DNA of 5,722 nucleotides from a bacterium (GTDB lineage Bacteria; SM23-31; JAUVVT01). A program made the translations under genes and the position numbers. The notes below the pieces were generated by a model that was not told the DNA's origin, did not search any database, and saw only the letters and a program-made list of their open reading frames with translations. The stretch spans positions 1-5,722 of the forward strand of contig JAUWXV010000233.1 of the NCBI GenBank assembly GCA_030616165.1, read 5' to 3'. Below are positions 3,942 to 5,722 of the stretch, one piece after another. Every line of letters begins with the position of its first letter. Positions within the stretch are counted from its first letter, which is position 1.

Positions 3942-4077
3942 ACTGCTATTTCTAATTAATGCCAATCAAATCCCGACTGAAAAAAAGCTGGAGTATTCCG
4001 ACACAAATAGACACAAAATCGAAAAAGACAACATGTCTTTCGTGCCAAGAAAAGCAGTAAGCAATTAATTTTATTAG
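3942..4077. other. Gap between reductase gene and tRNA, with GACACAAA repeats
   Basis: No supported gene. Two direct copies of GACACAAA lie at 4000-4007 and 4010-4017 (10-bp period), with a third on the other side of the tRNA at 4281-4288. The 10-bp spacing places the two copies on the same face of the helix, as protein-binding sites often are. Recombinase arm-type sites are one possibility. A 33-codon reading frame (3959-4060) lacks a ribosome-binding site and is not called. Confidence 0.3.
4024..4040 (-). terminator. Possible weak terminator hairpin 3' of tRNA-Pro
   Basis: On the minus strand, 37 bases beyond the tRNA 3' end, AAAGACA - TGT - TGTCTTT forms a 7-bp stem that runs into TTTTTCGATTTTG. 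Position and U-run suit termination of the tRNA transcript. The stem has only two G-C pairs, so it would be weak. No other terminator-like hairpin lies between the tRNA and the convergent reductase gene. Confidence 0.35.
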
Positions 4078-4152
4078 TCGGGGCGGGCGGATTTGAACCG
4101 CCGACCTCATGCTCCCGAAGCATGCGCGCTGACCAAGCTGCGCTACGCCCCG
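4078..4152 (-). tRNA. tRNA-Pro (anticodon CGG)
   Basis: A complete 75-nt cloverleaf reads from 4152 down to 4078. The acceptor stem is a perfect CGGGGCG/CGCCCCG. The D-arm is GCGC-AGCTTGGTCA-GCGC. The anticodon stem CATGC/GCATG encloses loop TTCGGGA (anticodon CGG, reads CCG), and the T-arm is GGCGG-TTCAAAT-CCGCC. The C1-G72 pair with discriminator A73 is typical of bacterial tRNA-Pro. CCA is not encoded (CTA follows) and must be added post-transcriptionally. The 5' half (4116-4152) is repeated at 4212-4248, so this gene appears to be the integration site of the element to its right. The gene itself is intact. Confidence 0.97.
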
Positions 4153-4181
4153 CGTTGTTCCTAAATAAGATTGATTTTTAT

Positions 4182-4202
4182 AAAATATATTTCATATATT
4201 TT
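4182..4202. repeat. AT-only hairpin between tRNA and its partial copy
   Basis: AAAATATAT (4182-4190) and ATATATTTT (4194-4202) form a perfect 9-bp dyad with a TTC loop. It lies in the 59-bp spacer that must also carry the tRNA promoter on the minus strand. With no G-C pairs it is not a convincing terminator. Easy melting or a protein-binding dyad is possible, but low-complexity sequence gives such symmetry by chance. Confidence 0.3.
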
Positions 4203-4211
4203 TACTGATAA

Positions 4212-4248
4212 CGAAGCATGCGCGCTGACCAAGCTGCGCTACGCCCCG
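4212..4248 (-). repeat. 37-bp perfect copy of the tRNA-Pro 5' half (putative att site)
   Basis: Bases 4212-4248 are identical to 4116-4152, the first 37 nucleotides of the tRNA-Pro gene: acceptor 5' strand, D-arm, 5' side of the anticodon stem, and loop through the second anticodon base. Identity ends sharply on both sides (4115 c versus 4211 a; 4153 c versus 4249 a). The T-arm and 3' half are absent, so it cannot give a tRNA. A break inside the anticodon loop is a known crossover sublocation for tyrosine recombinases, and the recombinase gene 107 bp away supports an attachment-site origin. Duplication of the 5' rather than the 3' half is the less common arrangement. Confidence 0.9.
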
Positions 4249-4354
4249 ATAAATAAAATTAAAAATTTACGACTTTTTCTGACACAAAAAGCATGCGTTC
4301 CTGAGGGGGACCTTGCCAATTCTTGCCATTTTTTATGGATTCCTTGTTAATTTT
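4249..4354. other. Spacer between att-like repeat and recombinase stop, with short repeats
   Basis: No gene is seen. It contains GACACAAA (4281-4288), matching the pair left of the tRNA, the palindrome GCATGC within AAGCATGCG (also in the tRNA anticodon stem), and two CTTGCCA direct repeats at 4312-4318 and 4322-4328 (10-bp period). Short repeats beside an att core are what recombinase arm sites look like, but no binding site can be proven here. I see no terminator for the recombinase gene. Confidence 0.3.
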
Positions 4355-5050
4355 TCAGTCAATTTTTGGTATTACATTAAGAACGTTTCTGTAATGCATT
4401 GGATCATAAGTAACATACCTATCTGTTGTTTCTCTATCCCTATGTCCAAGAAGAAGCCTTACAATGTCCAGACTAACACCTGATTTGTGCAGCCATGTTG
4501 CAAATACATGTCTAAGGTCATGGAACCGTAATTTCTTTCCACCAACTGTTAAACTCGTTTTTCTAACTGCACGGTCAAAAGTTTTTAAAATAGAATAGTA
4601 TCGAGTATTAGTATGAGGATTTAAAAATACATATCCTTTTTCTCTATTTCCAATAGCTCGCTTCAAAACCTCAATTGCGAGAGGATAGAGTGGAAATTTT
4701 TCTGTTCTTCCTCCCTTAATGACTAACTCTGCTTCACCGGTTGGAGTTAAATCATGAAACTTGATCGATTCAATCTTCAGTCCAAGAATGTTCTCTTTAC
4801 GGAATCCTGAATAAATAGCAAACTCTACAATATTAGCCATCTGCTTTGAACCATGCCATTCAATGAACACTGGAAATAGCTCTTTAAGTGTTATCTTTCG
4901 TGCTCGCTCGATCTGTTTAGCTTTTTCCATTTCAGATTCCGGATCTTTACCTTCCATTAACCAGTCATTGAATTTTATTGCCATGCGTTGTGCATTTTGA
5001 AGGTTATTTCCTGCCGATAATCGCCTCCTTTCAGCGCATGGCCTCCACAA
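4355..5050 (-). CDS. Tyrosine recombinase/integrase lacking its core-binding domain (probable inactive remnant)
   Basis: Phage-type integrase family, which recombines att sites. The catalytic domain is complete (numbered from the TTG at 5050): Arg84 in YSGFRKENILGL, Lys112 in VIKGGRTEK, His177 and Arg180 in HDLRH, His203 in LLGH, and the nucleophile Tyr212 in TTDRYV. Residues 9-66 (RRLSAGNN to KITLKELFPVFIEWHG) resemble the end of a P4-like arm-binding domain and the linker into the core-binding domain. At Gln70/Met71 (about 4840) the sequence jumps directly to the catalytic domain, so roughly 100 residues are missing in frame. The extreme N-terminus is missing too, because a stop codon directly precedes the TTG. 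At 231 residues it is far below the usual 350-420. An ATG at 4984 is an alternative start. Family certain. Loss of function is inferred. Confidence 0.85.
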   Translation of the reverse strand: MWRPCAERRRLSAGNNLQNAQRMAIKFNDWLMEGKDPESEMEKAKQIERARKITLKELFPVFIEWHGSKQMANIVEFAIYSGFRKENILGLKIESIKFHDLTPTGEAELVIKGGRTEKFPLYPLAIEVLKRAIGNREKGYVFLNPHTNTRYYSILKTFDRAVRKTSLTVGGKKLRFHDLRHVFATWLHKSGVSLDIVRLLLGHRDRETTDRYVTYDPMHYRNVLNVIPKID

Positions 5051-5066
5051 TTATAATATATGGAGG
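5042..5066. repeat. Short inverted repeat CCTCCA/TGGAGG before the recombinase frame
   Basis: CCTCCA (5042-5047) and TGGAGG (5061-5066) flank 13 AT-rich bases, spanning the gap between the helix-turn-helix gene and the recombinase frame and overlapping the TTG. In minus-strand RNA the downstream arm places TGGAGG just inside the recombinase frame, so a hairpin could mask any ribosome entry there. It may also simply mark a deletion joint. Weak evidence. Confidence 0.25.
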
Positions 5067-5079
5067 TAAAAGATAAATA

Positions 5080-5355
5080 TCAAGAATTTCTTGGAAGAAG
5101 TATCAACTCATTATTTAATTTCTTTTTACTCTTAGTATTATTTAGCAAGTAAAATTTATTTAAGAATTCATCAAGGTCATCTTTTCGAATACGACGGAAA
5201 CGATGATGTCCTATACCTCTACTTGGTAATTCTTCATATGGCAACATTCCCTTAGCAAGCCAGTTTTTAATGGTACTCTGACTAACACATGCATATTCTG
5301 CAGCTTCTGAAAGTGTAAATGCTCGTTTTTCTTTTGACTTTTGATAGTTAAACAT
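5080..5355 (-). CDS. Excisionase-family helix-turn-helix DNA-binding protein
   Basis: Small DNA-binding protein of 91 residues. Residues 12-35 (AFTLSEAAEYACVSQSTIKNW onward) form a MerR/excisionase-type helix-turn-helix, with recognition helix about SQSTIKNWLAKG. A basic wing (GIGHHRFRRIRK, 47-58) and the typical closing helix DDLDEFLNKF (59-68) follow, then a Lys/Asn-rich tail. Such proteins bend att DNA to favour excision or act as regulators of element genes. The start is the ATG at 5353-5355. The Shine-Dalgarno is poor, and TATAAT on the minus strand at 5374-5379 is a possible -10 without a good -35. The gene ends 29 bp before the recombinase frame on the same strand, the usual xis-int order. 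Alternatives are a MerR-like transcription factor or an orphan antitoxin-like regulator. It appears intact. Confidence 0.85.
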   Translation of the reverse strand: MFNYQKSKEKRAFTLSEAAEYACVSQSTIKNWLAKGMLPYEELPSRGIGHHRFRRIRKDDLDEFLNKFYLLNNTKSKKKLNNELILLPRNS

Positions 5356-5472: not shown

Positions 5473-5643
5473 ATGAAAGAACTCACAAGCTGGAGAATGA
5501 ATTTCAATGAGATTATCGAGCCGAGTGATAAGGATCTTTTGGATATGAAGAGGGCTTTTTTATTTTGTTTTGTGGGAAAAAAGTGCCAAAATTCCCATTT
5601 TTCCCATATATGTGAGTTTTTGGGAATTTTGTGCCAGGGTTAA
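5473..5643 (+). CDS. Doubtful small ORF or gene remnant (56 codons)
   Basis: The frame starts ATG at 5473 and ends TAA at 5641-5643. The first 29 residues (MKELTSWRMNFNEIIEPSDK and on) look protein-like, with mixed charge and spaced hydrophobics. The rest is Cys/Phe-rich and is simply the translation of the inverted-repeat block at 5573-5631. No Shine-Dalgarno is visible and no family is recognised. It may be the N-terminal stub of a gene cut by rearrangement, divergent from the excisionase-like gene, or no gene at all. Confidence 0.2.
   Translation: MKELTSWRMNFNEIIEPSDKDLLDMKRAFLFCFVGKKCQNSHFSHICEFLGILCQG
5573..5631. repeat. Two interleaved perfect inverted repeats built on TTCCCA/TGGGAA
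   Basis: Four hexamers lie within 54 bp: TGGGAA at 5573, TTCCCA at 5592, TTCCCA at 5601 and TGGGAA at 5621. Arm TGGGAAAAA (5573-5581) pairs with TTTTTCCCA (5598-5606), 9 bp. Arm CAAAATTCCCA (5587-5597) pairs with TGGGAATTTTG (5621-5631), 11 bp. The arms overlap in order A-B-C-D with A:C and B:D pairs, so the two hairpins cannot both form as simple stems except as a pseudoknot. Direct GTGCCA copies at 5583 and 5631 accompany them. Possible operator cluster or RNA switch/pseudoknot. Confidence 0.6.
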
Positions 5644-5707
5644 ATCATTTAATTTCAAGGGTTAAAGCAAGAATTTATTCGAAAAAAGTTGGATATTTTC
5701 TTTAACC
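5636..5707. repeat. AGGGTTAAA direct repeats with an inverted partner
   Basis: AGGGTTAAA occurs at 5636-5644 and again at 5658-5666, a 22-bp period (about two helical turns). CTTTAACC at 5700-5707 is the reverse complement of GGTTAAAG at 5660-5667. The set continues the repeat-dense region to the window edge. Spacing by whole helical turns suits sites bound by one protein, but nine-base repeats in AT-rich DNA can be accidental. Confidence 0.35.
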
Positions 5708-5722
5708 ATCCACAGGACAGGC

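Follow-up and report, generated by a model that had tools for sequence, protein, structure and literature searches.

The window analysed here, 5,722 bp long, is the whole of one contig (C94) of a 343-contig draft genome of 3.7 Mb that is 90% complete. Because the window and the contig coincide, the sequence to the right of the window cannot be read. The rightmost part (5548-5722) holds a ~150-bp dispersed repeat that recurs at roughly 17 further places in the genome, with about 82-98% identity, and that probably caused the contig break. ARAGORN finds a single tRNA gene in the window, a tRNA-Pro(CGG), which lies among the following features.

3994-4076, minus strand: remnant of a second putative P' arm on the 3' side of tRNA-Pro, with no integrase left (in-register arm comparison).
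4077-4152, minus strand: intact tRNA-Pro(CGG) (ARAGORN; Rfam tRNA model, 66.5 bits).
4116-4152, minus strand: repeat copy 1, the 5' half of the intact tRNA-Pro(CGG), ending in the anticodon loop (repeat finder).
4153-4211, minus strand: spacer of 59 bp between the tRNA-Pro halves, read here as the possible remnant of a later element.
4212-4248, minus strand: repeat copy 2, a second tRNA-Pro 5' half (repeat finder).
4249-4328, plus strand: putative P' arm of the 5'-side element, with CTGACACAAAA at 4279-4289 and the double motif TTGCCAATTCTTGCCA at 4313-4328.
4355-5050, minus strand: tyrosine integrase pseudogene, with the catalytic domain retained and the core-binding domain and N-terminus deleted.
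5080-5355, minus strand: excisionase-family helix-turn-helix gene, the partner of the integrase.

The two copies of the repeat are 37 nt long, 100% identical and 96 apart, with 59 bp between them, and copy 2 lies upstream of the 5' end of tRNA-Pro in the gene's own orientation. An exact repeat of this length within 5.7 kb is not expected by chance. The identity ends after position 37 of the tRNA-Pro gene (after C36 G37 and before G38), i.e., between the second and third bases of the anticodon, and the 7-nt anticodon loop reads TTCGGGA in tRNA-Pro(CGG) and TTCGTTA in copy 2. ARAGORN and the repeat finder thus reproduce what the initial annotation had described: a perfect 37-bp repeat of the tRNA-Pro 5' half, 59 bp upstream, broken inside the anticodon. 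The repeat boundary in the loop matches the position of anticodon-loop crossover, and we infer that such a crossover took place at tRNA-Pro. Neither a similarity search nor two mismatch-tolerant patterns (up to 3 mismatches) found a third copy in the assembly.

The integrase frame spans 231 residues and matches the catalytic domain. Aligned to three full-length relatives from the same genome, it is without ~109 internal residues (relative residues about 91-199), most of the core-binding domain, and its N-terminus is also missing. An active tyrosine integrase element carries core-binding and catalytic domains, and the window integrase is incomplete in this respect. The repeat does therefore lie beside an integrase, as originally stated, but this integrase is a pseudogene with internal and N-terminal deletions rather than an intact gene. 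Its intact relatives in the genome lie by tRNA-Ala(GGC) (C106), tRNA-Arg(CCT) (C127) and tRNA-Met (C150), and all three contigs also carry the pair formed with the excisionase-family gene. The genome scan returned named relatives of the integrase family at one locus only, in a Latescibacterota MAG (L155, 3470-4320 of contig JAFGMP010000455.1), where a broken integrase of this family is accompanied by three arms: two P' arms that terminate in the acceptor sequence of tRNA-Ala, and one that neighbours a further tRNA 3' fragment. There were no relatives of the family among viral contigs, and the phage and plasmid records gave distant integrases only, under 60% identity.

The family also shares sequences outside the genes. 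In all four members (window, C106, C127 and C150), the 3' end of the integrase has close to it the motif TTGCCAATTCTTGCCA, a double hexamer with 10-bp spacing. The genome contains 12 exact copies of this motif; the reversed control gives 0-1, even with two mismatches tolerated. The alignment of ten tRNA-proximal arms revealed a common layout: from the tRNA end there are about 30 bp, then TGGCAAGAAA or TGACACAAAA and a CA..TTGCTCC block, and after about 10 bp the double motif TTGCC.ATTCTTGCC. or GTGTCTATTTGTGTC. Their position suggests that these shared sequences are the integrase-side (P') attachment arms, to which the integrase would bind. In the window, copy 2 is joined directly to such an arm and lies 106 bp from the integrase stop, the distance between integrase and tRNA ranging from 50 to 106 bp in the family. 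The locus thus has the composition of a family member, i.e., a homologous integrase, the helix-turn-helix partner gene, a P' arm with TTGCCAATTCTTGCCA by the integrase stop and an adjacent tRNA. A partial tRNA-like match, CGCATGCTT near 4288-4300, was considered as a core site and rejected, since the ten-arm alignment shows it to be part of the P' arm.

The arm remnant on the other side of tRNA-Pro carries its motifs on the minus strand, with TTGGCACGAAA at 4038-4048 and an exact TGTGTCTATTTGTGTC at 4000-4015. The left and right arms are identical at 32 of 46 positions when compared in register with the acceptor stem, a value reached by 0 of 200000 shuffles, and together they correspond to the 54-nt inverted repeat I1 of the repeat finder. 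Both sides of tRNA-Pro have been used by family elements, one by the 5'-side element and the other by the element that left the 3'-side arm remnant.

The same genome provides comparisons for both types of insertion. On C127, the tRNA-Arg(CCT) gene has an integrase and its arm at the 3' end, and C327 holds a P arm and the displaced 3' half, 100% identical over 47 nt; judging from these two junctions, this is the usual 3'-side insertion. On C150, a tRNA-Met gene has integrase and arm at its 5' end instead, and C293 carries a P arm with the displaced, slightly decayed 5' half behind a promoter-like sequence. By the same sequence comparison, this is a 5'-side insertion with both junctions seen, on separate contigs; contig breaks interrupt the physical linkage within both pairs (C127/C327 and C150/C293). 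A tRNA-Met with the 5'-side arrangement of C150 is also present in the sister genus (G001). Another tRNA-Met, on C21, shows an intact gene followed by 4.1 kb, a displaced 3' half and then an older P' arm, an order that identifies it as a stacked insertion. These junctions show that the integrase family inserts in both orientations within one genome, and the window locus is of the 5'-side type.

Other tRNA fragments were observed during this survey. The gene for tRNA-Val(TAC) is a heavily used target, with at least five displaced 3' halves in one genome (L063, L095, L097, L099 and L141). On C173 (L143, 2565-2951), an intact tRNA-Leu(CAG) has a displaced 3' half 330 bp downstream of it, and the interval holds a frame that by eye resembles GIY-YIG; similar frames, again recognised by eye, occur near tRNA fragments in G004 (L228) and G005 (L239). 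REP-like palindromes (GGCGGATCCGCC; L095 at about 260-291, L101, and L104 at about 7814-7870) are found inside the T-loop of displaced tRNA halves and also beside tRNA-Pro(GGG), as if inserted.

The explanation that we favour, and to which we give about an even chance, is that the locus is a tandem attachment-site array which arose when elements entered the anticodon loop of tRNA-Pro(CGG) from the 5' side, and that the inner element has since collapsed. An older family element would have used the 3' side of tRNA-Pro and left the arm remnant at 3994-4076. An element E1, comprising the integrase and excisionase-like genes (4355-5355), would then have inserted with its integrase end against the 5' end of tRNA-Pro, bringing with it the 5' half that today occupies 4212-4248. 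E2, a related element that came later, would have inserted into the anticodon loop of the restored tRNA-Pro and supplied the 5' half now at 4116-4152, displacing that of E1 59 bp upstream. E2 would subsequently have lost nearly everything, down to the 59 bp that we take as its remainder, while the E1 integrase decayed. The direct junction between copy 2 and the E1 arm (compare tRNA-Met on C150), together with its 106 bp to the integrase stop, is the reason for reading copy 2 as the E1 attachment site. This order of events is a proposed one. Likewise, tRNA-Pro would now be transcribed from element-derived sequence; a promoter supplied by the element is plausible.

The three origins proposed in the initial annotation fared differently. 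The tandem attachment-site array is supported by analogy with the stacked insertion at tRNA-Met (C21) in the same genome. The collapsed earlier element has indirect support, but the match of the spacer to the ends of family elements does not exceed that of shuffled sequences. As to an element supplying the tRNA 5' half with its promoter, the 5'-side insertion is backed by analogy (C150/C293 and G001), whereas the promoter is plausible only. Several observations speak against two insertions: the repeat runs on into just 4 of the 7 bases of the loop, the 59 bp have no significant match to the P or P' arms of the family, and other tRNAs have comparable 5'-half arrays with no integrase beside them. 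The assembly, in which the contig ends at 5722 and the genome is 90% complete, also lacks the displaced chromosomal 5' half that E1 should have at its far end.

The spacer comparisons behind the second observation were made in register and locally, against shuffles. The score of the window spacer was reached by 39/500 shuffles for the P arms and by 81/500 for the P' arms, neither being significant, which is why a fusion of P and P' ends was rejected. The same in-register comparison for two other half-tRNA arrays of the genome (see below) gave 2/500 (P) and 14/500 (P') for the Lys spacer, and 23/500 (P) and 8/500 (P') for the Gly spacer. The window spacer contains one promoter-like pair, TTATCA-16-TATATT, which is not above chance; the promoter scan between the C150 integrase and its tRNA-Met called none.

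These other arrays may point to a different origin. Among the 41 tRNA genes of the genome, two more loci carry upstream copies of their 5' half, tRNA-Gly(CCC) and tRNA-Lys(CTT). On C145 (L138, 2216-2468), tRNA-Gly(CCC) comes after two extra 5' halves, and a perfect hairpin spacer (50 bp, identical in both cases, z -4.2) stands behind each of them. The first half is preceded by a promoter-like TTGACA/TATATT pair, so the whole array may share one transcript. On C326 (L137, 3514-3758), a tRNA-Lys(TTT) precedes one 5'-half copy of tRNA-Lys(CTT) with its 36-bp hairpin spacer (z -4.5) and the intact tRNA-Lys(CTT). In G025, a distant genome, a 158-bp unit made up of a spacer and a 5' half of 40 nt is present in two copies at a tRNA-Pro. 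No integrase was found beside the Gly(CCC), Lys(CTT) and G025 Pro arrays in the stretches examined. The initial annotation would have been refuted by related genomes that carry the half-tRNA duplication but neither element nor integrase, and in part such duplications are seen: at Gly and Lys in the same genome, and at Pro in the distant G025. The duplication in the window is thus, by itself, no proof of a link to its integrase.

An alternative that we consider possible, if clearly second in probability, is that tandem duplication, or movement in trans as a minimal att-only element, locally multiplies a short unit of spacer and 5' half (about 90-160 bp), one end of which falls in the anticodon loop; the integrase next to it would then be incidental. 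The Gly array with its two extra halves and identical spacers, the single extra half at Lys, the repeated unit in G025 and the lack of integrases in the stretches examined around all three speak for this model. The window departs from it in three ways: an element arm lies upstream of copy 2 where a second 59-bp copy would be expected, the spacer hairpin is weak (z -1.3, not better than shuffles, against the values for Gly and Lys), and no convincing second copy of the 59 bp was found in the genome. The partial 5' copies have similar lengths (37 in the window, 39-40 for Gly, 42 for Lys, 40 for G025 Pro and 36 for G004 Ser), and all stop at gene positions 36-42, i.e., in the anticodon loop or at its edge. 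This common stop favours a loop-directed process over random duplication, an argument that is post hoc.

We regard as unlikely a third model, in which a tandem duplicate of the full-length tRNA-Pro lost its 3' half, through decay or deletion, and its 5' half stayed behind alone. In the sister genus G001, the orthologous Lys locus has a degenerate full-length tRNA as its middle copy, so the Lys array may be a decayed tandem tRNA, and a decayed full-length tRNA-Gly stands behind a hairpin spacer of the Gly-array type on C260 (L071, 16282-16420; 92.5% over 40 nt). The sequence upstream of this tRNA-Gly is also similar, making the locus an apparent paralogue of the C145 array. At the window, copy 2 is identical at 37/37 positions and then stops abruptly, an outcome at odds with ordinary decay, which would not fully spare one half, and the 59 bp hold no trace of a 3' half. 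An assembly artefact duplicating half the tRNA is very improbable even in a 343-contig draft, given that the two copies have different unique flanks, that other tRNAs and other genomes have arrays of a similar make, and that the repeat is just 37 bp, short compared with usual assembly word sizes and read lengths. The comparison with empty sites drew on a phylum of six genomes, in which the tRNA-Pro loci of two class members (G004 and G005) were read; the stretches seen had no synteny, half copy or arms, which makes the comparison uninformative.

Insertions of this kind have been described before. Islander lists 3760 islands with a 3' fragment, 159 with a 5' fragment and 125 tandem arrays, and rejects candidates under 2 kb (PMC4383910). 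The window resembles its 5'-fragment islands in the tyrosine integrase, the anticodon-loop crossover, the upstream 5' fragment and the restored intact tRNA; it differs from them in that the integrase is dead and lies outside the two halves, the inner element amounts to just 59 bp and the outer displaced half is missing (PMC4383910). In Archaea, pTN3-like integrases use the 5' half of tRNA genes as their attB site, and a tRNA restored in this way depends on the promoter of the element; a review of archaeal tyrosine recombinases states that 5'-half sites are seldom encountered in bacteria (PMC8371274). The use of a 5'-half site is the sole feature compared between these integrases and the window, whose family is bacterial and uses both the 5' and the 3' side. 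In Caldiarchaeum, a 5' fragment of tRNA-Thr lies 1.8 kb upstream of the intact gene (PMC3293823). As in the window, the fragment is upstream of the gene, and a recombinase lies between the two; the case differs in being archaeal, tied to intron gain, and in having its element present rather than collapsed (PMC3293823). Judged by the Islander counts and the archaeal review (PMC8371274), the window is uncommon but not new: islands that displace the 5' end, and islands in tandem, have both been documented before. What may be less ordinary is that one family uses both sides in one genome.

A broader reading, which we put forward as speculative and rather doubtful, is that, to a single bacterial family of integrases, the anticodon stem-loop is a nearly symmetric site, so that insertion can take place on either side of the tRNA with an unchanged arm layout. 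Att-only units of ~90-160 bp (spacer plus 5' half) would also be mobilised or amplified at this loop, giving rise to rows of half tRNAs in front of intact ones. A tRNA fragment upstream of an intact gene can be the scar of an old insertion and may be mistaken for a gene or an assembly error. Most elements that target tRNAs displace the 3' end and do not separate the tRNA from its own promoter. With a family that inserts on both sides within a single genome, the determinant of insertion direction could be tested on near-identical integrases and arms.
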